Shown here: positions 7,033-63,425 of the stretch, in pieces
Layout: every line of letters starts with the position of its first letter
How positions within the stretch are numbered: the stretch's first letter is position 1
Source: Tetrahymena thermophila SB210
Lineage: Eukaryota; Ciliophora; Oligohymenophorea; Hymenostomatida; Tetrahymenidae
NCBI RefSeq assembly: GCF_000189635.1
Contig: NW_002476075.1
Coordinates: forward strand, 87,352 to 151,351
DNA: 64,000 bases
Direction of reading: 5' to 3'
The notes under the pieces: model-generated
The model's input: the letters and a program-made list of their open reading frames with translations, nothing else
Told to the model about the DNA's origin: nothing
Databases searched by the model: none
Program-made: the position numbers and the translations under genes

Positions 7033-10000
7033 ATGGGACTATTCGGGTAATGTATTTCTAGTATGCTTAAATCTAATGCAATATTCTAATTAAAAATGGT
7101 GCAGTACATTCAAAGGTACTTCTTATTTCTCCTATATCTCTTAAACGGCTCTTATTTATTATGTATAATCTTAAAAAACAAAGATTAATATAGTTCTAAT
7201 TAAGTTATTGTGATTCTAATTATGACTCCTATTATTATTATAGTTGCGTTTTTAAATGATTTTATTAATATCAGAAAGAAATCAAAGCATATATTATCAT
7301 TTCTTTTAATAGGGCTTTCACTCGAATACTATCTTTAAGCATTTCAAGAAAATGATTCATACTCTTTATCTTCATTTTAATTCAGTTATTTTATAATTAC
7401 AATTATTAAGGAGCATTATTTGATCTAAAACTCTAATCTACAAATATTGTAAATTATGTTCGTGATACTGTATATGACTTCCAGAATTTTTATCAGTTAA
7501 ATTAGAGATCAAAGTATTTTTTGTAAAATTATGATATGCATTTTCACTCCTTTTATAGGCTTTCAAAGGTAAATTCTAAATACAAATGAATAAATTTAGG
7601 TAGGAGGAGAGTAAATTAGAAAATAGTAATCAAATAGCAATATATAAAATTTTACTCCGCTCAAAAATAGTGAGAAATAAAATATTAGTAGAAAATAAGC
7701 TTAAAAATTAAAAAATAAAATAACAATCAACACTTCTACTTACAGAAACTAGAATTAAGTGGATTTATCTTTTAATAAATATCTTTCAACTTATATGGTA
7801 CACTAAGATGAAACAAAAAATAAAGAGATTGATTTTGAAGGTTTAGTATTGGCTTAGTCTATTCTTTAAAGCTTACAAACAGGAATTATTATGATTAATA
7901 ATGAATTTAAAATAGAATTCTGTAATTAAGAAATGAAGAAGTTTTTTTAAGTTTAAGACAAGCAAACTATTTTAGAAAATTTAATGGAAATTAAGTTGAA
8001 AGGATAAGAAAATATACAAAATTAAACTCATTTTAGCAGCAACAAACATTTCATACATTCAAATAGTTATTAAGATCTTCGTCAAAATAATAAAGATAGT
8101 GCAAGTAGTATATAAAATAATAATAATGAGCAATCCTAATTTAAAAAGAAATATGGGACAGTTTCTTCATATAGCACTACTAGCTAAATCAGAAAGATAT
8201 CAGTTGAAAAAAAAGGAAGATTAAGCCTTCATAAATATCCGAATAGAAATACTTTGACACAGAATCCTACAAAAGATAATCAAAATAAATAAGTAATAAT
8301 TGATATTTAAAGTATTAATAGAAAAAAAGATTACAGTCTCAGTTAAAATAATTCTCTTAATTTCAAATAAATCGAAGAAAGACCAAGTTTAGAAAAAAAT
8401 TAGTATAGTAATTGCAAAAACATAGAAAGTGCTTAAGATGATTTAATTATCAGTTTTTCTAATTTATCTCAAATGGGTTTAAAACAAGGTAGGTTTTAAG
8501 AATTTTAAAATGCAATTTAAAGCAATGAATTCTAAACGAAGGTAGATAATGGAAATTCTGATAAAAGTAACTCAAATGTGACTGAATATAATTTTAAAAA
8601 ATGCATCATTCCTCAAAAGGTTTTGTAAATATTTGAATAAGAAGATGTTTATATGTATGATCTTATCAAAGTTATATTTGAGCAGTAAGATAGAGCTTAT
8701 TTTAATAATTGTTACAGCTAAAACGATCTACAAGAAAATTTTAATAGATTTGACTCCTAAGATTTTAAAAACAAGACTGAAAATTTTTTAAAAAATAATA
8801 AAACCAACAACCTAAACTAAAACCAAAACCCAAAGTAAACAACTGATTTATAAAATCATAGATGTATCTCTTATTATATAGATAAAAATAGCTTGATTGT
8901 GAACTTAAAATAGAGCTATTAATATGAAGTCAAATATATCCAAATCAGAATTGGTTTTTACATTCACAAATAAAATTTTGAATGGAATACATAAAGCTTT
9001 GTTATAATTGAAGTATTAGAATTAGATTAGCTCACCCTAAATTTGTAAGAAAAAGAAATCTCTGATTACAAAAATAGGATGCTGGCTTCTGTTTCTCATG
9101 AACTAAGAACTCCTCTTAACTGTTCTATTCAGATGCTAAATATGCTTTTCGATAAATTTAATTAACACAGCTCAACTTATAGCAATCAAGAAATAACTGA
9201 GATCAATTAGAGTCTTGTTAAACCAGCACTTATTTCTAATCAGCTATTAATAAATATTATAAATGATATTTTGGATTATGCTTAAATTAATGCAGGATAT
9301 TTTAAATTGGTATTTGCTTTATTTTCTCTGTTTGAAGTAGTCACTGAATGTGCTGAACTTATGAATTTTTAAGCTGCTTAAAAAGGACTCTCTTTTGAGC
9401 TTTATTTCGATTCAAACTTACCTGAATACATCAATTCGGATTAAAATCGCATCAAATAGGTTCTATTGAATTTATTAAGCAATTCTCTTAAATTTACTGA
9501 TAAAGGATATATTGAGATTAGGGTGACTTCTCTCAATTCAAATTTAATAAAAATTGATGTAAAAGACACTGGATGTGGTATCCCTTAGGATAATCTAAAT
9601 AAGATTTTTGAAAGCTTTGGAAACAAATAACATTCTAAGTTCTTAAATACCCAAGGAGCGGGGCTAGGCTTAAGTGTTGCAAATAACTTGGCAATGGGTT
9701 TAGGTGGAAATAGAAAAATAGAAGTCAAGTCAAAAGTTAATGAAGGAACATGCTTCTCATTTTTTATACTTAACAGAGATTCCAATAAACAAGGTTGTGA
9801 AATAAAATTGAAAGATGTCTTTAACAGGAGGTTAGTAAAATGGGAATCAATAAACGAAAATACACTTTTAAAAGCAATGTCATTTAATAATTAAAAGAAT
9901 TTTTAATAATAGTAAATAGTAATTAGAAACAATATAACGAATAGTCTAAAAAATTAATCTAAAACAGACAATTTAGATAGAACTTCTAGTCTCAGTAGCA

Positions 10001-11385
10001 TTAAAATAAGGAGTAGTGTTAATTATGTTAATTCGGATTTGTAATAAGAGTTTATTTCTTTTTCTATGAGACCTAGTTAGATTATATACAGTTCTAATGA
10101 ATCACCTAAAAATAGAGTTCTACCTTCATTTTTAGGTTTTCCACAAGGTTTTTCTAATTTGAATAACGACTTAAGCTCTCCTGTAAATAAGCCTAATAAT
10201 TTCAACTAGGCAATTTTTAAAAATATAAGGACCTAAGAGAGCTTTACTCAATAAATTTCATTACATAACTCAAGCAATAACAATAACAGCAACTAATTAT
10301 AATAATAGTAGTAATAATAATAATAGCAACAACAACCACAATTACAATAATAAAATATTTTATTTGTGTAATAGTAATAACCATCATTATTTTAATTGAT
10401 AAATTAAAAAACGAAACCTCATAAAAAAATGAATAAAACTCTAAGCATAAATGAAAATCAATATACATTTGAGCAATCTGAAACTAGTGAAAATCAAATA
10501 ACTTAGCAATCAATTTATTAGTACCAAGCACCTAATAAAAGTATAGACGCGAATACTCGAATGATTACTGAGTCATGCTAAATTATAGAAGATTAGTAAA
10601 TAAATAAAAATGAAATTTAAGATTAGATCATTTTTAAAGCAAGTAAGAGCTAAAATTTTGATTAAATCGAAAGCTTGTAAACAGATGATTAATTTTATTT
10701 AACAAACCAGAATTTAAATCCTCTAACAATTAACGATGATTTTACTTAATAAGACAAATTATAAAATGGTCATATGAGTGATAGCAGCACATAATTAGAT
10801 AATAAGAAAATATCTTTATAGATGGTAAAAGACATTATAAGTAAAAGAGATATACATAACTCGAGAGATGAAAAGTTAAAGTAAAATACAAGTCTACAAA
10901 AGCATATAAACAAGCAAAATAATCCAAATATCAAACCTGATATTGCAACTTAAATAAAGTCGATTTAGTGGAAATGTGAATGTCCTAAAATCTTAGCTGT
11001 AGATGATAATGATTTCAATTTATATACAATATAAATTAGACTATAACAGTATGCTATCCGCATAGATAAAGCTTCATCAGGTTAAATAGCAATCGATAAG
11101 TGCAAATAGATGTATATATAAAATAATTGTTGTTAAAAGTATGCCGCTATACTCATGGATATTGATATGCCAATTAAAGATGGACACTAAACTACATAAG
11201 AAATTATTGAGTTTTATAATTCCTATAATTTAAAAATTCCAATGATTTCTGCATGCTCGGCTTATGTTTAAGAAAGTGAAAAAAAAAAAGCTCTATAATC
11301 TGGGATGTAATTTTACATAACAAAACCAATTTAAACTAGCTAGTTAGAGTAGTTTTTAGAGAAAGCATTTTCAGATTATTTTTGA
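7033..11385 (+). CDS. Membrane hybrid histidine kinase HK1
   Basis: A sensor kinase that should autophosphorylate on His and pass phosphate to its own receiver Asp. One uninterrupted table-6 frame of 1,450 aa, no introns. About six hydrophobic helices occupy residues ~25-185 (YFLFLLYLLNGSYLLCIIL, VIVILIMTPIIIIVAFL and others) with E98 and R151 conserved across the six paralogues. A PAS-like segment lies around G284 (TGIIMINNEFKIEFCN). The motif KKCIIPQKVLQIF is at ~522-534. HisKA has SHELRTPLNCS with H689; the N-box spans ~803-822; G1 starts at D845 (DTGCGIP) and G2 at G875 (GAGLGLS). A ~400-residue Gln/Asn-rich linker contains a Gln tract coded by mixed TAA, TAG and CAA. The receiver has D1324/D1325, phospho-acceptor D1376 (MDIDMP) and K1431. 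C1315/C1317 and C1366/C1367 belong to a Cys signature shared by all six. An alternative start is ATG 7096 (aaaaATGg), still ahead of the first helix. Confidence 0.95.
10270..10329 (+). repeat. Mixed-codon polyglutamine tract inside HK1
   Basis: A run of CAA, TAA and TAG codons in the HK1 linker encodes an almost uninterrupted Gln stretch. Under the standard code it would be a cluster of stops. Mixed codon use makes it less repetitive at DNA level than at protein level. It sits between the kinase and receiver domains, where it probably acts as a flexible spacer. Confidence 0.8.
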
Positions 11386-12151: not shown

Positions 12152-15100
12152 ATGAACACTACTTTGGATGCTATAAATGATTCTATGAATAAAATGATAG
12201 AATAAAAAAAATTGTACTTAATAGAATCTAGAAATTATAAATTATTTTTCAATTATCATTCTTCAATTTTGATATTATTAAATGGGTTTTTACAGCTTGG
12301 ATTTCTCATTTAGTAGAAATCGAATAATTCTACCATGAATCCTAATTTCTACTATTTTATGATTTCATATTAGTGCCTATTGATAATCTTTTCATTTTCT
12401 TTTGAGATGCTTATAAAATAAATGTGGCTTAAATACCTCTACAAAAGCATCTTTAACATACTATTGATAGAATATTCTTTTTAATTACTTTAAATTGATC
12501 CATAAATTTCTTATTTGATTGTTTATATCATTTTTTTTGTTAAATCAGTAAGAGATGCAGATCATGCCTTTTAGCAAATATCTTAACTCATTATGGTAAT
12601 TATTTATCTAGGATTTAGAGTCTATTTTTTTGGAAATAACATTTGTAATATATTTACATTGATTATATCCACAATAATGAGCTTCTTTTTAAGCATATAA
12701 CCTTACACTCGCGAAAAAATATAAAATTAGGTGAATAACTAAAATAACTATTAATGTACTCATACCAATTCTGAAAAAGATAATTAACACCTAATGAATA
12801 TCACATTTGCAAAAAGGTATAGGTAAGTAGGGTAAGTAGATTTCTAAAGCTAATTTCAATCAAGAATAAATTCAGATAATCAAATTTCATTTCAAAAAAT
12901 TTAGAATTAAAGTAAAAACAACTTAAGCTACTCTCATTCTTAATTCTCTCATTAAAAATAAAACCAAAAGTTTTTGAGCAATATCAGTAACTTTCTTGAG
13001 TAGATAGAGTCGCAAGGTAATGACGGATCTTCTTTTGATATAGCCAGTCAATCTGTTAAAAAGTCAAAAACAATCTCTATGAACAAAGAGTAGCATCTGA
13101 GTTAATAGATTGGATTAAATATTTTAAACTCTATAAAAACAGGAATCGCTCTTATTAACAGCAAAAATAAACTAATTTATTCTAATTCATACTTCAAGTA
13201 GTTTTTTGGTTAAAGCAGTTAAAACAATGCATACAGTAGATTTTTAAGTTTATTTATCAAAGAAAACCAACAGTTGAAGGCTTCAATCAAAAAACTCAAA
13301 AAAACAAATAAAAATGAAGATAATGATATATTGGATTCTAGTTTCTCTGAGATATAAATAAATAATAGTGTTTACAAAAAGAATAAAACAATCCCAAATA
13401 AATTAAAAGAGAGTAAAGAAAATTTTAGAGAGATTGGATGCAGTTTAAAAATGAAGAGTAGCAAGCATAATAATAGAAAATCTGATACAATGGTTGCTTA
13501 TAATTAATTTGAAGAACAACAATGCAGTATGTCAGATGAAAATTTGAAAATGATGTCAACAATTCATACAAAAAGTAAAAAAAAGTAAAATTAAAGCAAA
13601 TCAAGAAAGAAACAATTCTATTTGTAGCAAAAAAGTTAAAAATTGAAAAAATCTAATTCTTCAATAAACATCAATAGTAAAGGGAAAATAAAATACAAAA
13701 AAGACAAAAAGTAAGCCTTCCAAGATCTTACATTAAAATAGTAAATAATTCCTTTGAATGTGTTAAATATTTTTTAAAATGATGAAGTAATTGTGCTTGA
13801 TTTGATTAAAAAAATATTATCTGCAAAATTTAAAAATAAAAAGAACGTCTTTTACAGTGCAGTTAATTTAGACGATACTCAAGAAGAACAATAAAATGAT
13901 CCTAATATGAATTAAAAATGTGAAATCAAATCAAATAAGCAAAGTTTTAAAGGTCTTTCGAATAAAGGCAAAATAGATCAAGAAGGAAACTAAATTAATT
14001 ATTATATTGAAAGAAATAACTTAATCATAAATTTTAGTTAAAAAGGTGATTTTTTTTAATACTTACAACTAAAATTAGGTGTTTATTAAAATGTTACAGA
14101 TATGTAAAGCTTTAACTCTTATGAGGAAGATGAACTGAGAGACTAAATTTTTATTCTTGTAGAAATTTCAGACTAAAGTTAAATCTAAATAAATGTATAA
14201 GAAAGAGAGATTTCTGAGTATAAAAATAGGATGCTTTCTTCAGTTACACACGAATTAAGAACACCTCTAAACTGTAGTATTTAAATGCTTGAATTACTGC
14301 AGCTCAAATTAAATGAAGATCAATTTTATAAGGTGCAACAAAAAGAAGAACAAATAAATCCAATTATAGAAGCAAAAGAACAATTTTTAAAACCTGCTTT
14401 ACTTTCAAACTATCTCCTTTTAAACATAATAAATGACATTTTGGACTATGGCCAAATTAACTCTGGTTATTTTTAACTTTCCTTTAAACCTTTTGCTATA
14501 TTAGAGTTGATGACAGAGTGTGCAGAAATGATTTCTTTCTAAGCTTCCCTAAAAGGACTGATAGTCGAACTAAATTTAGACCCTAATTTACCATAAATAA
14601 TAAATTCTGATTAAAATAGGATCAAATAAGTCTTACTTAATCTGCTAAGCAACTCCCTCAAATTTACTGAAGAGGGGCACATAGAAATTAATGTTTAAAG
14701 AGAATCAAATGAGCTCATAAGAATAGATGTATGTGATACTGGAGTAGGGATCCCAAAGAATAACTTGTACAAAATATTCGATTGTTTTGGTGATAAGTCT
14801 AAACAAAGCATACTAAATACACGAGGAGCAGGACTGGGTTTGAGTATTGCAAATAGTTTAGCTATGGGCTTAGGTGGTAATAGAAGAATATAAGTAGTTT
14901 CAAAAGAGAATCAAGGCACTATTTTTAGTTTCTTTATAATAAATAGACAACAAAATAAAAAGGGATGTTAATTCAATCTGAAAGATGTATTTAACAAAAA
15001 ACTCATAAGATGGGAAACAATGAATAATAATCCAGAAAATTATTTTGCTAAATCCAGTAGCTCATCGATTGTCTAAAAGGCTTTGAAGCGCATTTAAACC

Positions 15101-16315
15101 AATGACAGTATAACAAACTATTCGAATAACTCAAGATATAATGCTGATCCCAATCTTTGTGGACTAGGAAGTGAATAAAATGAAAATACATTATATAATG
15201 ATTAAATGTCAGTTAAAACTTTTTCTGTAGCAAACAATTTAATTACATTTACTATAAAACCCTCATCTAAATAATAACAAGAAGTAGGCAGTGTTCCAAC
15301 CCGTAATAAAAGTGTTTCTATGAACCTAACTATAAGTACATAATAAAGAAAACAGCTAGGACCAAACAGGATATCTTCAAACTATGACTAAAATGTTTCC
15401 TTGAATAGTTTTGGGGATGAAAAGTAGCAAAATGAATTTACTAAAAATTCTAAAATTGATTATAAAAATTTTAACTTTAAGATTAATGCAAACCAAGGAA
15501 TTTAGCAAAATGGAATTGAGCGATTCGACTCTTCCTAGATACTTGAAGATGCTGCTTAAGAAGCTTTCTATATACCAAACGAATCATATATAAAGGGAAC
15601 AATCAAAGGCCAGCATATTTTGAATTTTTTAAACTAAAGATCAGAGCTATACTAATAGACACAAGGTTCAAATCACGATATTTATCCCTAGATATAAATT
15701 GACTAATATCCAAATTATGAAGATTTAAAAGTTAATATAAAAAAAAAATTGTCAACTAGCAGTGTAGGTTCATCAAAAATAGGCAGTATTGACAATAGAT
15801 TAAATTCTAATTTAACACCTATTGATTCTTATACTAATTTTCAACCAGATTAAAGGAAAGAAACAATCTTGAAATAGCTAACAGATTATAATAAAAAATA
15901 GCTATGTAACTGCACTTAGATTCTTGTTGTTGATGATAATGACTTTAATTTATATGTTCTATTTCTGCGTTTAAAAACATATGGTTTCAAGATAGAAAAG
16001 GCTGGTAGTGGAGAAATTGCAATCTAGAAGGTTCGACAAAAACTCAATTCGTAAGAGTGTTGCAGAAAATATAAGCTAATATTCATGGATATAGATATGC
16101 CAGTAAAAGATGGACATCAAACTACAGCAGAAATAAACAATTTTTTTTTAAACTAAAACATGCAGCCCCCTCCTATTTCTGCATATACTGCTTATGTACA
16201 ATAAAAAGAAATAAATAAAGCATTTGAAAGCGGAATGAAATACTATATAACAAAACCAATAAATTAAAAAGATCTGGAAGAAGTTTTATATTAAGTATTT
16301 CATAAATTATTTTGA
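12152..16315 (+). CDS. Membrane hybrid histidine kinase HK2
   Basis: Single-exon table-6 frame of 1,387 aa with the same plan as HK1, its closest visible relative here. ATG 12152-12154 begins MNTTLDAINDSMNK, followed by about six membrane helices (SSILILLNGFLQLGFLI; QLIMVIIYLGFRVYFFG). Conserved E107 and R156 lie in helices 3 and 5. PAS-like segment at G331 (IKTGIALINSKNKLIYSN). The IP motif reads IIPLNVLNIF; the Cys found just before it in the other five is Gln here. HisKA: THELRTPLNCS with H700. G1 D862 (DTGVGIP), G2 G892 (GAGLGLS). A ~350-residue Ser/Asn/Gln-rich linker follows. Receiver: D1261/D1262, phospho-acceptor D1313 (MDIDMP), K1368. It carries the LCNC motif just before the receiver and ECCRKY before the acceptor strand. 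The Thr before the catalytic His, instead of Ser, is shared with HK4. All catalytic residues are present, so it should be an active kinase. Confidence 0.95.
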
Positions 16316-18075: not shown

Positions 18076-21000
18076 ATGTAGTCAAAAGAGGCTAAAAAAA
18101 ATGGCACTTATATTTTAGGGTTATACTTTAAAAATGTGCTGATAAAGATAATGAAGCAGGCTGCGATAAATAAATATATCAATCATTATTTTATTACTAT
18201 TTTTAGCATTTTAGAAGTACTAAGTATTATGTTAGATGGATTTATCTTTTAAAAAGTAGAAGTTCAAAAAAAAAAACTTGAGATTTCAGTCTTTTGCTCA
18301 ATTATTTTATTAGATTTCATAACTGTTATGCTTATAAAGAAGGAGAAAATCAATGAATCAACTCATAAAATGTCTATTTTAGTAATAACAGCTGGAGTTT
18401 ATGAATCTTTTGCTTTAGATAGTGATAAATTTTTAAGAATAGTAGCTTTTTTTGTTTTACTGCAAATTTGCACTCGAAATATGGAGCTGCAAAATCTAAG
18501 CGTAAAATTTCTGATGCTAATATTGGCAATATATGCTTAAATTCGATTTTCGCTAAGTAGTGAAAGTAATTATATAGGGATTATAGAGTTTTTTTGTTTT
18601 TAATTGGCTATTTTTGCCTTTTCATTTATTTTTAATTTAGATGAAAAAGATATAGAAAAAGGTTAATAGTTTTTGAATATAAAATCTAAAAAAGATTAGC
18701 AAGATGATTTGTTTCTTTCAAATAGAGAATGTTTAAGAGAATAGGAAAATAATGATTTAAATAACTCACAAAATATGTCTATTTAAGTAAATAATAAAAA
18801 AAAATTCAATGAATTTGATCAAAGTTATCAAATAACTAAAAATAACAATAATGGATAAAGAAGTATAACAATTTAAAATTAATACAATATGAATGATATT
18901 TCCTCAGATTTTGTTAAAAAATTTAATATTAATAATAATAATAAAAGCAATCTTCATTCATATGCTTTTGAATATGATAATAGAAAATAAGCTTATATAC
19001 TTAAGAACGAATAAAAGCCATAGATTAGTTAAGAATTTTAATAAAATATCTCTTCTCCAAATCTATTTTCTTTTTTAAATAAATCTCTTAATTTGATCTC
19101 AATAGGAATAGTACTTATAAATTAGGATAAAAAAATCCAGTATCGAAATAAGACAGTGAAAAAATTTATCAATCATAAAAATTCAGATGGTAAGAATTTT
19201 ATGTAACAGTTGCTATCAATTTCTCTTTCAATGTTTAAAAAGGAGGCAGAAAAAGAAATTCAGTTTTTTGAAGATAAATAAAATAATAATTAAAATAATC
19301 AAAATATTAACTTAGAAAACAAAAATAAACAAAGTTCAACATAAAAAAAGAAGCAGATAATTAATAGCATATTAGATGAATAAAATGAAAAAATGCAAAA
19401 ATAGAGGAAGGCTTAAAAATCGAAAATTAATTAATAAGAAAAGTTTGGTTCAGTCCTTTATAATTAATATGAAACTTCAAAGGCATAGGGAGAATAACTT
19501 TAAAATTCTATAGGTTTAAGAAGAATTGCTACAGCTGAAGTGATGACAACAGAAAATAACTCCTATCAGCCATAAAAGTTAGTTAATAGCAATTTGGTTT
19601 AAGATTTAGGTAATATCATACAGAGTAATCTCAGTAATAACATGAATACAGATTATAGCTACTAAAAAGCCAATTCAAATCTTTCTAGCAAGAATATTAT
19701 TAACAAAAACATTATACAAATGAAAGTTTATGGCGCTAACACTTCTAAAGTAATTAAAGACAATACTGTTTCACCTAAAATTCTTAGTAGTGAGAATATT
19801 ATATAAGATTTGAATGCGACTCTAACAGGAGTGCCTTTTTATAATGTATCACCTTCTTGTAGATAACTGAACCCTAAAATAATGACAAAAAGTATATTTA
19901 ACTAGAATAATTTAAATAGTTTAAACTATGTAAACAATTACGAATACTTGAATAGCTTCAATAAAGATTCTATATTCCTTCAATAAAGTGAATTAAATTA
20001 ATAAAGTTTTCCATAGTAAATGCTTTCTAAATTCATTCAATGCTTAATTCCTGAGAATATCGATTAGCTCTTTAAAAATGAAAACTTAATCTTAGATGAT
20101 GTTATTGATTTTCTTTTAATTTACTCAAGGTGTCCTTAAAAATTGAAATACAATACAGATTATCACATTTAACACTAATCAGATGAAGAAATGTTTGATC
20201 AAGAGAAAAAAAACTACAAAAAAAGTTTTTCTTAGCTGAGTAAAAGTAATATTGAAGATGAATTACCATTTAAAAAATAGCTGTAACCTTAGGTAAATCC
20301 TTAAATAGATGAAGAGGAAGAGTAAGAAGATTAAAAAAATTCATAAAATTAAGACGATTAAAATTTGAGCATTCTTAAAAGTGAAATTAATAAAATTGCA
20401 ATGAAAAGAGAGAAAAGCGAAGTAAGAGTTAAAAATTCAAATGGATTTTAAAATAAATAGTAGTAATAATAATCTCATAAGTATAAAGAGAAAAAATCTA
20501 AAAACAAAAATCATTAAAAACTTTACTCATACTTTACTTAAAATAATTACCTTCACATCCACACAAAACTAAATTGCTCTAGTTTTGATTCAAGCGAATA
20601 TGATAATAAGATGACATTTATAGAAATAAAATTGAGTGTTTTATAGCAAGAAGAAACAGAAAATCAATATGTACTTATTGAGGTTTCTGATGTTACATAA
20701 TTCAAAAAAGTAGTTGACAAAGAGAATCTTGATTCTTACAAGAATAAAATACTATCATCAGTTTCTCACGAACTTAGAACTCCTTTAAATTGCAGTATTT
20801 AATTGCTGGATCTTCTCTCTTAAAGTGAAGAAATTTCAGATATTACTAAAAATGCTTTTGTAAATCCTGCAATGTATTCTAATTTTCTGATGCTTAACAT
20901 CATCAATGATATTCTAGACTTGGCATAAATAAATTATGGCAAATTTAAAATGATTTTTTCTTAATTTGATGTCAAAAAAATAATAACTGAGTGTCTAAAT

Positions 21001-39058: not shown

Positions 39059-39140
39059 TTTTAATAATGTTTCTTTTTAATGTATTTGTATTGATAATTA
39101 ATTATTATTTTTTCTCTCTCAATTCAAACCGATTTCTAAC

Positions 39141-41817: not shown

Positions 41818-41906
41818 TTTATTCTTTGTAATATATTGAATAGTTATTACCAATTATTAATTATTTTGTTTTTCCTCTTTAATTTACTTCACTCAAATTA
41901 CAAAAC

Positions 41907-41917
41907 CTCCGTTTTCT
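41907..41917 (-). promoter_or_regulatory. Upstream element AAAACGGAGGT before SEC2
   Basis: Minus-strand AAAACGGAGGT, about 90 bp before the SEC2 start; counterpart of the element before SEC1 at nearly the same distance. Confidence 0.4.
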
Positions 41918-44116: not shown

Positions 44117-44305
44117 ATAAATAGATAAATGATTATATAGCTTTTTGTTATTACCTCTACTAAACAAAAAGAATTTCAATAAATAATTAAATAAATAAAT
44201 TACTTTGTTAGATAAATACTAAAAAGATCAGATAAGTAAAATAATAAGATCTAATAAAAATTAGGATATATTCATATAAGCAAGCATCATAAAAAGCAAA
44301 CAAAA

Positions 44306-49000: not shown

Positions 49001-50646
49001 TTTATCAATCCAAGTTGAAAAGACTCCAAGTTCTTTTTCATAGTTTGCTAAAGCATAGAAACAGCATCCAGTTAAGTGAGCACATAGAAAAATAAATCCG
49101 CCCAGTTTAATCAAATCCAAATAACTCCCAATATACTCTCTAATATCAGTTGTGTATTCAATTTAAGAAAGGTAATGTATAAATGTAAAAAGCCTTAAAA
49201 CTCCTACTACTTTAAACCATATAGAAACACCATTATTTAAAGATATCAGCCAAAAAATACAAAGGAACATATCGAAGCTTAATTAAAAAAATGAAATAAA
49301 ATTCTATATAATGATCGATATTGATTTAATTAATTTACTAAAAATTGACTGAGAATAAATAATGTTTTATGATCTAGGAACGATCTGTGATCACAACTCC
49401 TCTCTTATAAAAACCTTTAAAAAACACAATTTTATTTTGTTTAGAAAAGCAGTATGAATAATTGATCAATGTTACCTGTGTTTAACTATAGAAAGATATT
49501 TATTATCTAAATTATATTAGGGATAACTTCAAAAAGTATAAATATTTAATTATTTTAGTAAAGTGAGTCGAACGCTATTCTGATAGGTAAGTAAATTATG
49601 TAAATCAGTAGAAAGAAAAATTGCACAAAATTCCATAATCGGCTAGGTAAATGATCCTTTTCATTAAAATAAAAAAAAATTTAAGCGTTTTTCAATCATT
49701 CATTTAATTATTGAATTATAGAAAGAAAACTATATATTTATGCATTTACAGGCATGATTATCCAGTTACTAAATCCTCTTAGTTTAAGAAATTTAATGAA
49801 TTCTCTTGCTAATTAATTTTAAAAATAGAATAAATGATAATTCATAAAAAAATTAAAAATAATTTTTATAATTTAAATTTTAATATAAAAATTATTTTCT
49901 TTCTATTTAAATCATAATGAACAAATAATTTGAGTCAGATAAACAATTTTTATGTTATTTTTCATTTCTTTTAGCGAGCACAAATTTGCTTTATATTAAC
50001 CCTTTACAAGTTCTAAATCTAATGAATATTATATGTTCTTTTTATAATGAACAAATATCATAAAAAGATAATATGTGAACCCAGAATAAAAGAAAATAAA
50101 CAATCATTTTTGTTATTTTTATGTTTACTTTCTAAGTAGTGGGCAAACGATTCGAACAGTGAAGGCATCTATATATTAAAATTCGATTTATTTTTTATAT
50201 CTATTAAGGAATGTAAAATTTACTTCATTTGTAAATCTTTTTTAGTAGTAAAAGTAATCATAAAAGAATGATTTATCATCTATAATGTCAAGCTAAGATT
50301 TTCTGGTTTGGCCAAATCTATATAAAGAACTTTGTTGCTTTATCTTTTGAATAAATTTGGCCACATATTACCATTTTCTGTTTTAGAATAAAGTGATTTG
50401 CTTTTTAAAGTTAACAGAAGGCTAATTAGCTAATTCATCTGAGTTATCCTTGATAGTATTTTACTCGTTTACATTGTTAGGAAGTATTTGATTTTTTGAC
50501 TCCCTTTTATCTATTTAAGTCATCTAATATTGATCTACACAAATAGTTTTCAAAGTGTTTATATCTTGAGCTATCACTTCCTATGGTTCATTTATTAGAT
50601 TTTGTTATCCTAAAGAATTTTATTTAAATATAGCCTATTCGATCAT
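46033..50646 (-). CDS. CNG/EAG-type K+ channel with degenerate cNMP domain and CCHC motif
   Basis: Eight minus-strand exons, all in phase: 50129-50646, 49750-49804, 49476-49656, 49339-49414, 48799-49277, 48146-48720, 47802-48090 and 46033-47510, giving 1,216 aa. It is a six-helix potassium channel of the plasma or ciliary membrane. S1 starts near residue 199 (WNFVQFFFLLIYIIYLPIR), S3 near 278, and the pore filter TVGYGD is at 401-406, followed by S6 and the NSIGEII hinge. S4 (~296-311) carries few basic residues (FKVVGVLRLFTFIH), so voltage sensing may be weak. The C-linker is followed by a cyclic-nucleotide-binding fold (~540-625: LFFILSGEVEI, GEFVGSQEFFGD); its phosphate-binding cassette lacks the usual Arg, so ligand binding is doubtful. 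A CCHC zinc-knuckle-like motif follows (C651, C654, H659, C664). The last ~500 residues are low-complexity. ATG 50644-50646; TGA 46033-46035. Confidence 0.93.
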
Positions 50647-52550
50647 TATATATTTATTAAACTCCTACTTTTGTTTGCTTTAATAATATTTGTAAACTAT
50701 TAAATATATTAAAGATTTTATTATAAAAAAAAAGTTGCTTTCTAAAAAAGAAACTCATTTAAACGTAAATTTAATTAACGCAAACAATATACTAAGTTAG
50801 ATTAATATTGAATATGATTTGCTTGAGTATTTTAATAATTTGAAGTTGAAAAGAAAATTTTAAATATCCAAATAATTAAATTAAGTACATTAAACATTCA
50901 TTTTTCATAATAAATTATTTTTTTTAATTAATAAATATTTTAATTGTATTTTTTTTTTATTAAAATATAACAATCCAATATAATCAATGAATAAATTAAA
51001 TGTAGGTTTTTTATATCCCTTTTATTTAAGACTTTATAAATATACTAAACATAGTAAAATTAAATTCAAAAAACAGCTTTATAAATTTTAATTTACATTA
51101 AATTACTAAAAAATTATCTACTTATATCAAATCTTTGAATAATTTTTTTTATTGTAAGGTAATGGTTCACTATCAATATTATTTATAAGATATTTAAAAT
51201 AATCAAAAATATAAAAGATATTTATAAAATTAAACAAAAGCAAATCTTTTTTATTTTATAAATTATTATTTTAGATGAATATAAATCCTAATATATTTAT
51301 TATTTTTTAACTTGATAATTTATAACAAAATTATTTTTCATTACTAGTATTAATTGCATTTATAAATTATGCTTTTTTTTAAATTATATTTTTTTATTAT
51401 ATCTAATAATCAAATTATTAATAATAAATGAAACATTAAACTTTATCCTATTAAAGATTTTAGTAATAGATATTTTTTTATTACAAAAATATTTATTTTT
51501 CTAATTTAATAATTTGATCATATCTTAAAAAATAAATTATCATTGTTAATTTCAAGTAAACTTATAATTTTTGAATTAGCTTATCTGCTAATAATTTCTG
51601 ATTTCACTAAATTATAACTATTAATATCATAAATTTAAAAAATTTTAGAATATTTGAATAGGAAAAATAATGGATTCCAACTTTTAAAGTAAAAAGCTTT
51701 TGAGTAGAATAGAACATTTTTAAAAGCTTAAGCTTAAATCAAGTTTTTAGTAGAATTTAATTCAAATTTTAAATCCATTAAACCTTTATAGTTTTTCTTT
51801 AGAAGTGTTATAGAATGATTGATTCATAAGCATAATTTTTATGATAAAATAAGCAATAAATTTTTTTGTAAAAAATTTACAATAAAAAGTCTAATAAAAT
51901 AATTTTAAATTTTATATTTATTACTTTAGATTTACAAAGGCATCATAATTAATTAATCTAAAAGAAATTTATTATAAAAATTTTGCATTTAATACCCTAT
52001 CAATCATAATTGAGTTTTTAAAAATGCAAACTATTTGAATTATATATAAATAAAGTTGTTGTTTGCTCTTAAATTTTAGAATGAATGATAAATAGATTAT
52101 AATAAGTTTAAATTAAAATTTATCGATGTGAAATATATTTCTGCGATAAAATATTTTAACATAACGAAGTATGATTATGATTTAATCAATTTAAGATAGG
52201 TATGGAAAATAAAATGTTTTTTTTTATATATTAAAAAGTGGTTTATAAATAAATAAAAAATAAAAAAACATATCTAAATCACCATATTTTAGAAAATCAA
52301 TTCAATTACTTCATCTGTTTCTATGAAATTTAATTTTATTAAGTAGAATCATCGGAATACTTTAAAATAAATATAAATTGGCAGATAAAAGAATTGTTTG
52401 TATAAGAAAAGAAACAAAAATTGTTGCTTAATTAAATAGTAAAATCATGAATCTCTATAAAATTTAATTTCAAATAATTTTGATATTGTTTTATTAAATA
52501 AAGTAAAGTTAAAATTTAAAATAAATACCATTTTATTAACCACAAAAATT
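50647..52550. other. Divergent intergenic region K+ channel-HK5
   Basis: About 1.9 kb holding two promoters. It is AT-rich throughout. A 50-codon ORF at 51670-51822 (+, starting MDSNFQSKKLLSRIEHF) has Gln codons and a coding-like look, but is too short to support. Nothing else stands out. Confidence 0.55.
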
Positions 52551-55500
52551 ATGACCTTTTCTCAAAGATTAAAGCAAAATAAAACCATAATTTTAGCCAT
52601 ATCAATTATTATTTACAGTCTCAATGAATTGCTCTTTATGATTTTATGGCTTTCTGAAAATAATCAATCTCATTCTTCATAGTAAAAAACAAATAAAATA
52701 GTCTGTCTCTTATTGTAAATAATAACAATTATTTTTACTATGGTGGCTTATTTTTTGGTTACTGTTAAGAAATAATAGAATACATATAATATTATAAAGT
52801 TAGTTATTTCTATTTTATTAAATGAATACTCGATGTTCACTGATTATTAACCCTAGACCTCTTGCTCTATATCAATAGCTCTTATTATTTTCTTCTATCC
52901 TAAGTTATTTAATTAAAGAAGATAGTTTTTTTTGAAGGTATTTATGCTCCACTTTTTATATCTAATACTGAGGTATCTTTTTTAAGGAAAGATATTTGAT
53001 GTGAGATCAGATATTGGAATAATTATTTCAACTTTCATTATCTTTGCAGTTATTTTATTTTAAGACTTTAATGAAGAAAGAGATAGAGAAGTTTAATATC
53101 AGCAGAATGGTATTAGTCCTCTATAGCAAAATAAATAAAAGCAAGAATTTGATATTTTAAGTAGGTAAAAAATACGTGATTAGTTTAATTACATAAAAAA
53201 AGAATCAAAAATTGATCAAGAGAGCAAATGTTTGAATTAACAATAATAACGCGAAAACAATTAATTTAATTACAAATAGATAGAAGATCAAAATAAAAAA
53301 TAAAATTCTAGCTCATTTGACTTCTAAGAACTGTAAAAGACTGGCATACTGATAATTAACGATAAAAAAGAAGTGGTAAAGATAAATAGCTAGTTTGTTT
53401 AATTTTTCGAAGAAAAAACAAATTAATAAATTAAACTAGAATCAACGCAAGTAGACAAAAGGTCTCTGAGAGAGGAATTGCTGCTTATAAATTTAAAATT
53501 TAATAACTCAAAATTATTTTAATCACATAATAATTAATATCATGAACAGCTCAATAGTTTACAAAACAATGCCATTTTCAGTGAAACAAACGTTGATAAA
53601 GATTTTTTTAGCTTAATACCTGATTAGAATAAGTAAAACTCAGCTGACTTAAAACAAAATCAAAATGCAAATGACTCGATTATTAAATTTAAAGAAGAAG
53701 AATGCTAATAATGCATAGACAAAAATGTTTTAATGCCCATTAATGTGTCTGCTCATGAGCTTGAAGATACTTTTATCAAGTAGAATGGAGCTCAAAACAT
53801 TTCTAACACTCTCTAATTTATACATTTAAACAACTCTTTAACTTCTAACTCACCTCTATATGATCTAGAAAATCAGTAAAACTTGAATGCAACACAAAGA
53901 ACTCCCATTAATTACCAAATAAATATAAACAATTATAGGATAAACAACTTTTAAAAGCAAAATAATTTTTAGCAGACAAGTGTAAGCAGCTAATAATTCA
54001 CTGAGGGATTAAGTAAATTAAAACAGTGTCATATCCCTGAAAATATAGATTAATTATTTGAAGATTATAAAGGTGATATTTGTTTGAGCTAAGTGATAGA
54101 TTTTTTGATTAAATAATAGCCTCAAGAAATCATTGACTCAAAAACTAACCAAACAAATACTTGCAAGCATTGCCAAAAATTAATTAACTAGCAGAATTCA
54201 TAAGCAAAAAATAAAAAGTATCCTTAATCACAATTTTATAAAATCCAAATTGATTCTAATTATTTAATCATATCGCAGATTTACAAAGATAAGTCAAATA
54301 AAAAGAAGATAATTGACTATAAGATAGGCTGCTTTTTAAATACCTAAGATGCTTCTTATGATCTTTGTTAAAAGTGCAAAACTTCTAATCCAGATTTTAG
54401 CACTTCAGTTCACATAGCCAACAGAAAAATGAGCTTAATTTACGGAGACAACAAGACTCTCAATTAAATAAAAGAAGAAAGTCAGACAAGCAGCAAAAGA
54501 ATTGAATCTTTGAAATAAATTGTAAATATAAGCAATAGTAAAATTGATAGCTCATAAAAGCATTATAATTACAAAACCAAACCTTATCATGTTGCTAAAA
54601 TATGTTCTTTAATGAGTGAATCTGATAATGATCATCTATAAAGAATAAATTTAAACTGCTAAACAAATGAAACTAGCTAAATCAAGTAGAAAGACTAATA
54701 TAATAGCAACGAAGAAGTGCAGACTAACATAGAACAAACTCAATATTTATTTTCTATAGAAGTAACCCAAACAGATTTTGAAATTGTTTCTGAAAACTTA
54801 AAGAACAAAATGGATAAATACAGACAAAAACTACTTTGTTCGATATCTCATGAACTCAGAACTCCTTTGAATTGTATTATTTCTATGTTGGACATGCTGA
54901 ACATGAAGAATGATATTTCAGATGCAAACAAAAACTACTTTGTGAATCCTGCTCTATTTTCAAGTTACATTCTGTTAAATACAATAAATGATATTTTAGA
55001 CATGGCAGAAGTAAATAGATCTGGAAAAATTAAAATGCTATTCTAAGAATTCTCTCCTATAAATCTATGTCATGAATGCTTAAATTTTATTAAGCTCTAA
55101 GCTTAGTAGAAAAATCTTTAACTTATTTTTGAATATGATGAGTTTGTCCCTAAATTAATTTACACAGATTTGAATAAAACAAGATAAGTTCTCTTAAATT
55201 TACTTAGTAATGCACTAAAATTTACTTAAAAAGGTAATATAACAATTAAACTTTCATACTCTTAAGAAAACATATTACAAATTGATGTCAGTGATACAGG
55301 ATGTGGAATAGCACCAGAAAAATTAAAAAAAATATTTTTTAATTTTACTCAACCTGAGTTTGACATTTACTCTAATCAATCTCATCATAATAGTAACCAA
55401 AAAGAATATCTAAACTCACAATTAAGCCTTCAGTTTAACAACAACAACAATAATAATAATTCCAAAAATGCGGGTCTAGGTTTGAATATCTCATACATTC

Positions 55501-57440
55501 TTGCCAAATGTTTGGGTGATAACAGAACTTTAAATGTGTAAAGTGAACTAGGTAAAGGAAGTACATTCACATTTTATATAGTTAGTCAATGTCAGAACAG
55601 AAAAGGGTGCACTTATTTGCCTGTTCCTTAATTAGAATGTTTCAATTCTCAAAGATCAAAGTATCAACAAGATAGTGAATATTCTGAAAACAACCAAATT
55701 TAAAAGTCTTTTTTTGCCAGAAATTAATATTAAATGAACCAAGATGAAATCGAAATCTAAAATAGCTAAGAACTCACAACAAAAAGCATTTCTTAAAACA
55801 ATATAAGGGGATTAGAAAATAATTTATACATTGAAACCTTTAAAAATTCAAACAGGTCTTAAGAAAGAAGTAAAAATCATCACCTGTAAAGTAAAAATGG
55901 ACTTTGTTTAAGTTTTAACAATTTGAGAGTGAGTCCAGATTAAGATAAAAATAATTTAGACAGTTTTCATAGCGATAGAAATTTTGATCATATGAAGGAA
56001 TTGTTTCCTGAAAGTGAGTCTGATAATTTAAATTCAAAGTCTAAAACTAAAAGCTTGCAAACTTCTTTAGTCTAGATAAATTTCAATAAGACTGCTTTCT
56101 AAATTATTTAACATGCTTCTAATATTTGCAATTAAATTTATTCTTATAGAGATATTTAGGAGGACTAGCATAATTTAAATTTGCAAGTAAGAGGATCTTA
56201 AGGTAATATTCACTCTCCTTAGACAACTAGCAAAGAATTTTTCTAGGCTTCGAAGTAACAATCTAATTCAAAAAGAAATAGTATCTGTGAAGATGAATTC
56301 CATATCAAAATCCTATCTTCAAATAATAATTTACTAAAAAATAAATGTAGCGAAATAAATATTGCATCATAAAAAGACATGAAAGACTCTGACCGTTCTA
56401 TCAACAAAAAACTTAACCTGAGTAATCAACACTGCAGTATTTCTCTCAGTAGCTTAACGTAAAATAAGAACTGTTAGCTTTCAAATAAGCTACCCTTAAA
56501 TTAAATTCATTAAGAAAAACATAATTTAGAAAATTTTGAAGAAACTTAATATTCAAATAAAAAAGTAAATTCAGAACTGTGCAATTAAGTTTTAAAAAAT
56601 AATTATTTGAATTATTTTAACTCTCCTAAACAAGAAGAATCATGTGATGTTATGAGTGAATGCACAGAAAAAAAATTCCCAAATCAATCTGAAAAACTTA
56701 AAGTTTGTGAAAAGCCATAAAAATTATAAAGAAAAAAAATGATCTTAAAGATAGATTAAAATCACTAAACCTCAAAATCAAGTGATAATTTATGCAATAT
56801 TTAAGTTAATAAAAACTATTAATTTTAAGGAGGATGTTTAAAAAAAGATTAACATGTAAATTAGAATTCTAATTAACCATAAAATAGTTCTAGTTCTCTA
56901 AATAGTTTCATCATGGTTGAAAGTCGTCAAAATATATAAGAAAATTCTCATGAAGGTATAAAGCATGTTCACATAAATAACTAAATAAATAACTTTTAGT
57001 TACTAATAGCCAGTTAGAATAAATAAAGAAAATGTTAATGTCCATAGATATTGATAGTTGATGATAATGAATTCAATATTTATGCATTATAAATTAGACT
57101 AAAAATGTACTCTTTTATTATAGATGCAGCCACTAGTGGATTCGAAGCACTTGATCTTATTAAAAAAAAGAAAGAGCACTCTTGCTGTAATAAGTATTCC
57201 CTTGTTTTCATGGACATAGATATGCCAGTAATGAATGGCTATCAAACTACAGAAAAGATTTTATAATTTTATAAAAAGCTTAAAGCAGAGCCACCTGTGA
57301 TATCAGCATGTAGTGCATATATTTAGGAAAGTGATAAGCAAAAGGCTTATCAAGTTGGAATGAAATACTACATCACCAAACCCATCAATACTTAATCATT
57401 TGAAAACGTTTTAGCTTAAGTATTTTAATTAGAATCTTGA
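52551..57440 (+). CDS. Membrane hybrid histidine kinase HK5, with CxxC pairs
   Basis: Single-exon frame of 1,629 aa starting MTFSQRLKQNK. About six membrane helices (IIYSLNELLFMIL; FLYLILRYLFQG) with conserved E92 and R141. PAS-like segment at G265 (KTGILIINDKKEVVKIN). The IP motif KQCHIPENIDQLF is followed by two CxxC pairs, C538/C541 (TCKHCQK) and C606/C609 (LCQKCKT), absent from HK1-HK4. HisKA: SHELRTPLNCIISMLDM with H767. G1 D915 (DTGCGIA); G2 at G975 (NAGLGLNIS), after a longer Asn-rich lid than in HK1-HK4. A ~470-residue linker. Receiver: D1504/D1505, phospho-acceptor D1555 (MDIDMP), K1610. Cys signature KCQC before and SCCNKY inside the receiver. With HK6 it forms a subgroup marked by NCIISMLD and CLGDNR in place of NCSIQ and GLGGNR. 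Confidence 0.95.
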
Positions 57441-58562
57441 ATTAAATAATTTCATACAAAATTCAATTTATTTTAAGATTAAATTAAAAATCAATATTAA
57501 TTGAAATAAGTAAAAGATAAAACAAACCAATTTAATTCTATCTAGTAAATAAAATTAATAAATATATGATTAAAATATATATAAATAAATCAATTTTTCA
57601 ATAATTTACCAATACTAGTTACATTTAAATTAATTTATAAAATTTTTAAAATTGGCAGTGAAATAAAGATAAATATTTATTTCTTCTTAAAATAATTAAT
57701 GTGATTTCTTTCTTTTTTTAATATTTATAAGGAAAATTAAAAGAAAAACTTTTAAAAAGTTTAATTTTTTATTTCAAAATTTGAATATTTTTTATTTTTT
57801 TTGTTTAGTTAATTTTTAAGGTACTTAAATAATCTATTTTAAATTATTAAATTATTGGTTGATGATATAAATTATTTAAATTTTAACAAAATAAAATTAA
57901 TTGGATTAATTTTTACTTTTTGTAGTTAGCTTTAATAAGTAAGTTTATTTTTAAAAAAACAAATAAATATTGTTTTTATTAAAAGTTCTAAATATAACTT
58001 TGGTTAGAAATTTAAAGATGTTTTTTTTTTTAAATGAACATTTTTTCAATCAAATAAATATCTCAAATCAAAGAATAAACTATTTATAATTTAAGTATTA
58101 TTGTACTATTAAAAGAAATAAAAAATATCAATATTTTTAAGTAAATTTATTTATTTTAACTTGATATATTTATCATAATTGATATTTATTGTTGATTAAT
58201 TTGTTAGTTAGTTAGTTAGATAAAAATAAAAAGTTAGCGTTTTTTCAGTAATAATATTTTTAATTTGATTAAAATATCTTAAATTCAATGAGATGTTTTT
58301 TATTATTTTTGATTGTTGTTAAAAATAATTAAATATATATAATCTAATTATTTAAGAACCCCCTAACCTGTAGAATCAATTAAAGATATCAAAGCAAATT
58401 AATTAGGTAATAAGTAAGTAAAGCAATTTATTTTTCTTATTCATTTATAGATTGTTAAAAAAATTAGAAAAGACTTATATATATTTATATTAATATATTA
58501 GCTACTTGCTTGCTTGTTTAATAAAATAGATAGATAGATATATACATAGAGAATTACTTTAA
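57441..58562. other. Intergenic region HK5-HK6
   Basis: About 1.1 kb, AT-rich, with short tandem tracts (gttagttagtta near 58202-58215; gatagata near 58528-58541). No copy of the conserved block found upstream of HK2 and HK4 was seen. No gene. Confidence 0.6.
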
Positions 58563-61500
58563 ATGAAGAATTAAGAAAGTAGACTGAAGTCTTTTATAAA
58601 TAAGAATAGCTTGATGATATTTACATTAATAATAAGTGTTTATTCTTTAAATGAAATCATTTTTATATAAATTTTAGATAAAAACTATTGCTTAAATTAA
58701 GATTTTTCATAAAATAGCAAGGTGATAAGTCTATCTTTATTAGTGGCATTATTATTAGTTAGTACTGTGTAAATAGGAATAATTTTATTAAAGAAACACT
58801 ATTAGTGGAGAGATTACATATATTTAGCATAATCTGTTTTACTAAACGAATACTCTTAATAATTCCCTCAAATATAGGTTTATGCCTTTGGTTTGTCTTT
58901 TGCACTTCTACTTCTCTTTTATGAAGTGCACATAGCAGCTTTGAATTGCAAAAAATACTGCAAAATTTTAATTATGCATTTAATTTATTTATTAGTTCGG
59001 TTTTTTTTATATGCGTAGAGCATTAATGTGTCTAATTCTCTTCAAATAATATTTCTAGTAGCTACTATTTACATAAAAATAATACTTTGTTTTAAAGCAA
59101 CTTCAAGTTATGATAACTTAAATGATAATTAGAAACTAATTTTTAGATATATGGATAAGAGCATTTAAGAACCCTTTTCAGCTGAATTCCAAAGAAACAA
59201 TGATCAAGATAGAGAAAATAAAAGTAATAACAACGATAAGTAAATTTAGAATGAGAAGAATTCATTTTCACCAATAAAAGTGAATAAAAACAAGATAGAA
59301 AAAGAACAAATTAAAGGTGTTGATTTCAATTCTTCTATTTTATTTGATTACACAAATATTTAAAGTACAGGTCTGCTTGTATTAAATGATTAATAAGAAA
59401 TATTAAAATATAATAATCAATTTGCATCACTAATTTAATAATTATAATCTTTCACCCAAGAATCTGGAGATTCTACCAATCTAAATTCTAGTGATTAAAT
59501 AAATTAAATTATCAAAACATTTTTTGTTCTTAGCTTAAATTACAACTAAATTACAACTCAAAAATTAGAAACAAAAAAGCATTTAGAGTCTAAGTATAAA
59601 GAAAACCAAAGACTTTCTCACACTTAAAATTATAAGAAAGATCATGCAAATAACTAAAGCCAAAGCTCAGCATTTGTTCAATAAGAACCAGGATAATCAG
59701 TGTAAAATGAATATAAAGGTAAAAGTTAGTAACACTTTTCTAAATTGAACTTAATGCATACCTCTTTAGATGATGATCTTTTAAACATTCACAACAAACT
59801 CAATCAGGTTTAAGAAAAATAGAAAGAATAAAATCATTGCAAAGAGTAGATAAATTTTAATAAGAAAGATAGCAGTATAAAAGAAGAAAACGTTGATTTT
59901 CTTTTAGAAAATTCAAACACATAAAATAAAAAACCTCATTTACAACAACCATAAATTATTAACAATAAATCAAATTTTTTTAGTAAACCTTCTCCTGTTT
60001 GTAGTTAAGCAGATTCTACTTTTAATAAAGAACTAATTTAATGCTAAATTCCAAATGATATCAATAAGTTTTTTGAATAAAAATAAGCAGCAATTAATGT
60101 ATCAAATCTTTTAAATTTTTTAATACAATCAAAACCTAAAGAAAAAAGTGAAATAAACAATCAAAAAATCTAAAAATGCAAAATATGTCATAAAATTGTT
60201 GATAAATTTTAAGAAATTAATATAAATTAAAACAAGCAGTCTATGAATTTCTAAACTTAAACATACAAATACTCGATTCAGCAAGATTTTTTGACAATAT
60301 CCTTAAAATTTTTTGATAATAAAAATAAAAAAAGAAATTTTGATATAAAAATAGGCTGCTTTAAATCTCAAGAAAATGAAATCAACTAAAAAAATATAGA
60401 TTTTATATGTGAAACATGTGATAAAAAATCAATGAATGAGCTTTAAGAGGTAGAAGAATAGTCTGAGAATTAAAAAGAATCTACTTACTGCAATATTTTA
60501 TAAAGTAGGAGTTTCATTGAGTAAAAATTAGAGAAATCTCTCAAGAACCCAAATAAATAAGCATTTATAAACTTAGACTCTATTGAAACTAATTCAAATA
60601 ATAACAACAATAATAATTACGTGAAGTAAATTAAGCTAATTGGATTAAATTTTTCTTCTAAGGGAAATGAAGCTTTAATGTAGGAATCTAACACAAAATA
60701 AAATATTTAAAACGCTTCAAACTGCGATTCAAGTATTAATGATTTATCTTATTAGCATTTTGTTAAAAAAAGTATTTAATTTCTATAAAACAGCGAAATT
60801 CTACTAAAATTAGATAATAACAACAACAATATTAGCAATCAAATTTTAAAATTTTAGAATCAAGAATGTGCTTACATATTTACTATAGAGATATTAGAAA
60901 CAAACTTTGAAGTTACAACTCGAAGCCTGAAATAAAGGATGGATAAATTCAAAAGAAAAATGCTTTGTTCCATTTCACATGAGCTTCGTACTCCTTTGAA
61001 TTGCATAATTTCTATGCTTGATATAATGAATATGAACAATGATATTTCTGATTTGGCGAGAACGCTTTATGTTAATCCTGCATTATTTTCTAGTTACATT
61101 TTATTGAACATAATAAATGATATTCTAGATTTAGCAGAAATCAATAGGTCGGGATAGATTAAAATGATGTTTTAAGAATTTTCTCCATTAAATCTTTGTA
61201 TTGAATGCATGAATTTTATAAAGCTACAAGCTTCATAAAAGAATCTTCAATTAGAACTAATTTGTGAAGAAAGTGTACCAAATATAGTTTACACAGATTT
61301 AGATAAAACTAGATAGGTCCTTCTTAATCTCTTAAGCAATGCTTTGAAATTTACATAGAAAGGAAGCGTAGTTATAAAGTTATCTTATCCTCAAGATTAA
61401 ATAATTTAAATCGACGTAAAAGATACAGGTTGTGGTATACATGCATCTAAATTAAGGTAAATATTTAATAATTTTACTCACCCTGATTTGGAGTCTATAA

Positions 61501-63425
61501 ATTCTGCCTAAAAATAAAATTCACCCACTCTGAAAAAATAACAATCTTCATAGTTCCAAAAGAATGCAGGACTAGGTCTAAGTATATCATTTATGCTCGC
61601 ATCGTGCTTGGGAGATAATAGATAGCTTACAGTGAAGAGCGAAGTAGGAAAAGGTAGTACGTTCACATTCTTTGTAGTGAATAAATCTAATCAAAAAAAG
61701 GGGTGCATTTTATATCATCCATAAAATAAATTTGAAAGCCAAGCTTCTTTGAAAACAAAGCTTTGGATAGAAAAAGGTGAATTAACAGAATATCCAAACT
61801 TATCTGCTCTGAATCAAAAAAAAATTAGTGATAAATAATATACGGAAAGCTAAAAGCAAAATATTGATGAAGACCAAGCTGCAGCTGTTAACAAGGATTA
61901 TACCAATATCCAAAATTTGAATTCGGAAAATTAAATTTAGAGCCAAGGCACTTTAAAACGAAATAAAAAGAGATTATCCAATGCGAATTAAGGAAGTCTT
62001 TAGAATATAGTGAGATAATAATTTAAAAAGCCTACTATTGAAACCTAAGAGTATAACGATTCCAATACTATTTAAGAGCTATTTCCTATTGATAATATAC
62101 AGCGTTAAGACTCTCTCAGTATAAGAAAATAGGCTTCAATTTTGTACAATAATCTTAGTAAAACAACATTATAAATAATATAGTAGGCTTCGTCATTGTA
62201 AAGCTACATATTTTCAGCCAAAGAGATCAATGATGAACAATCATAATAAATAACTTCAAAAGGTATTTATTTAAATACGAACAATACAATAGTTTCAAGT
62301 GATCAAACCCCTTAAGTAAAATATATCATATAAAATAATACTAATATTTCAGAATAAGCTACAAATTCTAATTAAAATAATGAAATCAAGCCTATCAGAT
62401 TTAAAGAATCTGAAATATTTTCAAAGTAAAATTAACTAAACATTTTTAGCCCTTTACTCAAAGTTAGATAAAGTAAAAAGCAGTCAAATTTAAGTATTTA
62501 ATTTAACTTTGATTTTAACGAAGAATCTCCTCATATGCAATCTACAAAAACTTTAAACATTACTGGCTATGATGAAAATTTAAATGCTTTTATTAAAAAC
62601 ACTCAAAAAAAAATATTAATCCAATAGCTTGAGTCATGCAACGTCCTCAACGATAGCTTTGACATTAAATCTCCATAACAATTTACTCCACATGTAGAGA
62701 GATTTAGATAAAGATAGTCAAGTTAATAATCTTACAATAAAAGCACTTCAAACAACTTACATGTCACCAGTATTAACTCAAAATTAAATGAAGAACCGTA
62801 GCATTTAGCTAACCCTAATTAAAATCAATAAAATTTGGTAACTTCTTTAGAAAAAAATAGCAACTAAAATCTGGTTAAAGTACCACAGGAAAATTTTTTT
62901 GATTAGTAAAATCAAGTCGATTTCTCCAACTATTGCTGCTCGATTACAAACAGATCTAAGCAATCTACTTTTCAATTAGAAAAAATAGAAGAAATCATTT
63001 AAAATCAGTAAAAACAGTGCTAGTGTACTTAAATTCTCTTGGTTGATGATAATGAATTTAATTTATACGCGCTTGAAGCCAGATTAAGAATGTATTAATT
63101 TTCAACTGATAAAACAACAAGTGGCTTTCAAGCACTAGAATTAATTAAAAAAAAGTATGAAAATTCCTGTTGTAAGAGATATCACTTAATCTTTATGGAT
63201 ATAGATATGCCAGAAATGAATGGCTATCAAGCAACCTAAGAAATCATCAAGCTTAGCTAAAAATTAAAAATAAGCCGTCCTATAATATCTGCTTGTAGTG
63301 CTTACGTTTAAGAAGATGATAAGATTAAAGCTTTTAATTCAGGAATGGATTTCTACATAACTAAGCCAATTAACATATCTGCTTTTGAAAATGTTCTAAA
63401 TTAAGTTTTTTGTAATATTAAATGA
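58563..63425 (+). CDS. Membrane hybrid histidine kinase HK6, telomere-proximal
   Basis: The last gene before the telomere, stop only ~405 bp from the first repeat. Single-exon frame of 1,620 aa starting MKNQESRLKSF. About six membrane helices (LMIFTLIISVYSLNEIIF; ILIMHLIYLLVRFFLYA) with conserved E96 and R146. PAS-like segment at G270 (STGLLVLNDQQEILKYNN). IP motif IQCQIPNDINKFF, then CxxC pairs C539/C542 (KCKICHK) and C616/C619 (ICETCDK), as in HK5. HisKA: SHELRTPLNCIISMLDI with H806. G1 D954 (DTGCGIH), G2 G1003 (NAGLGLSIS). Receiver: D1495/D1496, phospho-acceptor D1546 (MDIDMP), K1601. Cys signature QCQC and SCCKRY. HisKA, ATPase and receiver match HK5 closely, while the linkers diverge. 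It is complete and intact despite the terminal position. Confidence 0.95.

Follow-up and report, generated by a model that had tools for sequence, protein, structure and literature searches.

Six membrane hybrid histidine kinase genes stand on one strand near a somatic telomere of the ciliate Tetrahymena thermophila. Did they spread recently from a single founder, or are they old duplicates within a larger family? We analysed a stretch of 64,000 nucleotides (the window) that corresponds to positions 87352-151351 of contig C368 within a 101-Mb assembly and forms the right-hand part of a somatic chromosome. Our reading, to which we give a probability of about 0.8, is that the window holds six intact membrane hybrid histidine kinases, arranged as three old tandem pairs that belong to an intron-poor branch of a larger family, which numbers about 80 such kinases.

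C368 is 151,351 bp long and carries (CCCCAA)n at its left end and (TTGGGG)n at its right end; it is therefore a complete macronuclear chromosome, telomeric at both ends. A telomerase frame from this genome supports T. thermophila, or a very close relative, as the species: aligned with the TERT of 6d6v, the T. thermophila enzyme, it shows no visible mismatch from LYEFVQMKRF onwards, except over 21 residues that come from a read-through intron, while roughly the first 35 residues of the aligned query fit poorly and presumably lie outside the exon. A telomere pattern search yielded 3886 forward matches and 4330 reverse ones; those listed all lay on one contig and were not used to define chromosome ends. 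Such ends arise by programmed breakage in the germline, and a macronuclear telomere should therefore not be taken for a germline subtelomere.

Six unbroken kinase genes

All frames were translated with genetic code 6 (ciliate), in which TGA is the sole stop. The six ATG-to-stop frames of the plus strand (1,387-1,903 aa) coincide exactly, in coordinates and length, with those given by an earlier sequence-only reading of this DNA (Table 1). The internal starts of K5 and K6 are probable ones, called by eye from the translations, and were used in the alignment. HisKA, HATPase_c and Response_reg score above the Pfam cut-off in all six proteins. The H, N, G1, F and G2 boxes are complete in each, HisKA retains its phospho-acceptor histidine, and the receiver is always C-terminal, with the DD pair, the phospho-acceptor aspartate and the lysine in place. 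The sequence-only reading had described hybrid kinases of one architecture and orientation, with intact H, N, G1, G2 and receiver residues and no pseudogene among them. This description stands for the whole set: the genes share strand, single-frame structure and domains, and with frames unbroken and motifs intact a pseudogene reading of any of the six is ruled out.

Table 1. Features of the window, in window coordinates
Feature	Position	Strand	Remarks
K1 hybrid histidine kinase	7033..11385	+	single frame, 1450 aa; His689, receiver Asp1376
K2 hybrid histidine kinase	12152..16315	+	1387 aa; tandem sister of K1 (tree)
K3 hybrid histidine kinase	18076..23469	+	1797 aa; domains and residues
K4 hybrid histidine kinase	24067..29778	+	1903 aa; tandem sister of K3 (tree)
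Beta/gamma-crystallin-like C-terminal part, frame 1	37748-39118	-	below Pfam cut-off
Beta/gamma-crystallin-like C-terminal part, frame 2	40507-41892	-	over Pfam cut-off
CNG-type ion channel frame with cyclic-nucleotide-binding domain	48080-49390	-	domain match
K5 hybrid histidine kinase	52323..57440	+	1705 aa from first ATG; probable start ~52551
K6 hybrid histidine kinase	58293..63425	+	1710 aa from first ATG; probable start ~58563; tandem sister of K5
Macronuclear telomere (TTGGGG)n	63831..64000	+	terminus of contig C368

Each gene is a single open frame in the genomic sequence, as had been proposed, and is predicted to be intronless. With TGA as the only stop, an AT-rich intron that stays in frame could nevertheless be read through. 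Many of the 50 reference introns that we predicted elsewhere in the family contain no in-frame TGA, and nine candidate introns of family members are contained in a single open frame. We scanned the six frames for in-frame GTA...AG segments with an AT content of at least 0.86, a scan that catches about half of real introns because this value is the median of the 50 reference introns, and five of the frames contain no such segment. The sixth, K6, has one at residues 42-69, upstream of its probable start and hence outside the probable coding part; in a codon-shuffled control the six frames together average 1.7 such segments. Near a recurrent intron site at the F box, K6 also carries a short insert immediately preceded by GTA, but this triplet overlies conserved F-box residues. 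The corresponding insert of K5 does not start with GTA, and by eye both inserts look coding. We consider hidden in-frame introns quite unlikely.

Old tandem pairs and their relatives

Trees under two models pair K1 with K2, K3 with K4, and K5 with K6. The closest relative of each copy within the window is thus its neighbour, and the tandem duplication postulated by the sequence-only reading is borne out. The duplicates are nevertheless old. Core identity within pairs is 57-61%, dN within pairs is 0.29-0.34 (core and receiver), and synonymous differences are saturated in all 15 comparisons among the six (pS 0.68-0.78, core and receiver). With such identities and saturated synonymous sites, the rapid recent expansion suggested by the same reading fails. 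Set against this saturation, the nonsynonymous differences over the same regions are small (pN 0.24-0.38), which means that the proteins are constrained: core and receiver are under purifying constraint.

Nor do the six group apart from the rest of the family. K1 and K2 cluster with two loci of contig C114 (L040 and L024) under both models, with support of 100/99 in one of them. K5 and K6 likewise cluster with locus L087 under both models (100/99). Over all core columns K1 is 62% identical to L024 and 60% to K2; on the tree K2 is the nearer of the two, and K1 and K2 are 63% identical over the kept columns. A topology that places the six in a clade apart from all others is rejected (AU test, p = 0.039). 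Both trees were built without L057, L078 and L083, which had too few columns, and L072 and L053 are also absent from the tree that gives the 100/99 supports. L058 and L086 were counted as one gene, an identity that is unproven, and L082 may be misplaced on its very long branch (3.7).

Could a single intronless founder instead have given rise to the six in a rapid, recent and local burst? The tandem, same-strand arrangement of single-frame genes is what such a burst would leave; no other local cluster is as large among the 82 kinase loci that we examined, and a single clade of the seven kinases found on C368 is not rejected (p-AU 0.26). Against it stand the saturation of every pairwise comparison, the well-supported grouping of K1 and K2 with genes of another contig, and the rejection of the six-only clade. 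We regard the burst as highly improbable and conclude that K1-K6 are old duplicates in a large and already reported sensor family.

The seventh kinase of the chromosome, L087 (C368:2209-2955), lies at the opposite end and points to the left telomere; it belongs to the same clade as K5 and K6.

The six genes had also been described as pointing to the telomere. They do so literally, all being on the plus strand with the telomere at their right, but the orientation has no counterpart family-wide. A contig end is found within 64 kb of 31 of the 82 loci, where 29.3 would be expected, and 45 of them are oriented towards the nearest end. Without C368, the only contig checked as a whole chromosome for these counts, the figures are 24 loci against 23.3 expected and 38 of 75 pointing endward. 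The family thus shows no enrichment near contig ends, and a family-wide telomere orientation is rejected. Tandem arrangement, in turn, is a habit of the family: adjacent loci less than 30 kb apart form 14 pairs, against 2.0 expected, and 13 of these are same-strand pairs. Tandem duplication suffices to account for the shared orientation of the six.

An expansion of histidine kinases in T. thermophila and further ciliates has been published before: the available text of PMC3341644 describes expanded atypical or sensory histidine kinases in the same organism and of the same family as K1-K6, with a citation (its reference 11) that is presumably to the 2006 Tetrahymena genome paper, and it notes that ciliates have large sets of this class, which higher vertebrates lack. 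This text gives no positions, introns or tree; the tandem chromosome cluster, the pairwise divergence and the intron mapping are added here. An expansion of phosphorelay sensor kinases is described for hypotrichs in the accessible part of PMC10946202. In Paramecium bursaria, signal transduction histidine kinases are up-regulated with algal symbionts, according to the part of PMC4029085 at hand; these, from another ciliate, are likewise sensor kinases according to that paper's annotation. Other Tetrahymena families, such as LRR genes, are tandemly duplicated and fast-evolving and, like K1-K6, expanded by tandem duplication (PMC6564038, available sections). Those sections tie innovation to germline pericentromeric and subtelomeric regions, whereas K1-K6 are old copies near a somatic telomere; the word "histidine" does not occur in the main text of that paper. 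In a literature search of partial coverage, no title or abstract opening dealt with this cluster, with the introns of its genes or with their arrangement in tandem. As a genome feature the cluster is mostly ordinary, being made of old tandem duplicates in a family whose expansion was already known. It is also a natural place to study signals and phosphate partners, since the kinase cores are conserved, the membrane sensors have diverged and the host is genetically tractable.

Introns across the kinase family

Genome searches gave 65 matches for HisKA, 110 for the K1 core, 50 scored matches among 88 candidates for the receiver, and 38 scored among 97 for HATPase_c. From these we examined 82 kinase loci, six in the window and 76 outside, which is not a final gene count; we put the hybrid histidine kinase family of T. 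thermophila at about 80 members. Weaker matches (C214, C157:566589, C442:69038, C114:930055, C280, C51, C430:36783 and C430:34800) were left outside this set.

Predicted introns that join different frames, one or more per locus, interrupt the kinase core in 46 of the 76 loci outside the window. The introns were predicted from frames and profile fit, and the predictions are weakest in the most diverged loci. The 50 core introns have a median length of 139 and a median AT content of 0.86. Three positions recur, two of them in phase 1 (ahead of the G2 glycine and at the G1 glycine) and one in phase 0 (following the F box). No core intron was seen in K1-K6. Among the 19 loci outside the window with the best HisKA scores (L011-L029, about 9-10 kb of each), a single frame holds membrane part, core and receiver only in L020 and L021.

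Mapped on the tree, the uninterrupted state is clustered. In the clade of 17 genes to which K1-K6 belong, 13 cores are uninterrupted; outside it, this is true of 10 of the 52 counted. The state requires 13 changes on the tree, compared with a mean of 19.5 under label shuffling, and only 2 of 2000 shuffles needed 13 or fewer. The states were assigned by hand, and eight loci without a clear state (L014, L035, L044, L060, L075, L076, L079 and L084) were not counted. L015 and L033, continuous under the automatic rule, were counted as interrupted because a second frame completes the core; L047, a clade member split under the rule, was counted as uninterrupted, with one frame spanning the core and no intron candidate found. 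L074 was counted as interrupted, also without an intron candidate. The predicted gene structures thus indicate that an intron-poor branch exists, with exceptions inside it (L019, L024, L031 and L061 have core introns) and parallel cases elsewhere.

How did this branch come to be intron-poor? One possibility is a founder copy derived from cDNA, retroposed or cDNA-converted, that was later duplicated as DNA. The excess of uninterrupted cores in the clade fits this idea, as does the frequency of predicted core introns among the loci outside the window, and in L040 on C114 one frame (1378 aa) likewise covers everything between N-terminus and receiver inclusive. Yet four clade members do have core introns, and intron positions differ between branches, which repeated gain or loss would explain too. 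Single-exon genes are moreover common in this species, at about 30% in the published table (18,732 of 26,742 genes are multi-exon; PMC10946202, accessible part). We hold the cDNA origin to be possible but doubtful. The intronless founder proposed by the sequence-only reading is in part consistent with the tree, though such a founder would predate the cluster.

In the close K1 relative L024 (region of C114:2009924) we predict an 808-nt intron inside the G1 box, which K1, K2 and L040 do not have.

Protein layout and putative relay

Hydropathy gives five to six hydrophobic peaks ahead of a PAS-like region in all six proteins. An AlphaFold model of K1 residues 1-960, of low confidence (mean pLDDT 42.9), has six long N-terminal helices. 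PAS-like strands follow at 284-323 and 613-663, with some 290 mostly low-confidence residues between them, and then a dimerisation hairpin and an ATPase fold. The Pfam PAS match of K1 is below threshold (17.8 bits, cut-off 21.8), and the Pfam search of K2-K6 listed no PAS match near the cut-off. Together, hydropathy, secondary structure and the sub-threshold match of K1 suggest about six transmembrane helices and a split PAS-like domain. Between ATPase and receiver lies a linker of 332-636 residues with 23-29% Q/N in the six copies. The most likely order is transmembrane bundle, PAS-like domain with a long insert dividing it, HisKA, HATPase, Q/N-rich linker and receiver. Between copies the membrane part is 13-31% identical, against 42-69% for the core, as would be expected if the sensed signals had diverged and the catalytic part had been preserved.

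HisKA, HATPase and receiver are joined in one polypeptide behind a membrane sensor in yeast Sln1, Dictyostelium DhkA and the plant AHK type, as is predicted for K1-K6. What would set K1-K6 apart is an N-terminus of several predicted helices that no large soluble domain separates, a PAS-like domain into which a long insert is placed, and a very long receiver linker. In the working model that we consider most likely, a signal would be sensed by the N-terminal bundle and the split PAS-like domain, and the dimer would autophosphorylate the HisKA histidine. The phosphate would then pass to the aspartate of the C-terminal receiver on its long linker, and from there to further putative partners.

A genome search for Hpt (PF01627), positive in 8 of 14 control genomes, gave no match and, at first look, no candidate. 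A search with Arabidopsis AHP1, run with no positive control, gave the same outcome. The 84-residue domain, when short, intron-split or diverged, could escape both searches, and the missing match amid about 80 kinase loci is a lead rather than a result. These kinases might operate without a classical Hpt, with the receiver either serving as output, such as a phosphate timer or a binding switch at the end of its long and flexible tether, or handing on to an unrecognised carrier; we think this unlikely.

Six receiver domains have no detected kinase core nearby (C31:816094, C31:819931, C10:348913, C157:90991, C157:96659 and C198:205712) and are possible stand-alone response regulators, which might be targets of the relay.

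Among the neighbouring genes of the window, the CSN5-like gene spans two frames; its JAB domain scores over the Pfam cut-off and CSN5_C just under it. The two crystallin-like frames adjoin each other in a G+C-richer stretch, and are reminiscent of Tetrahymena secretory-granule proteins.
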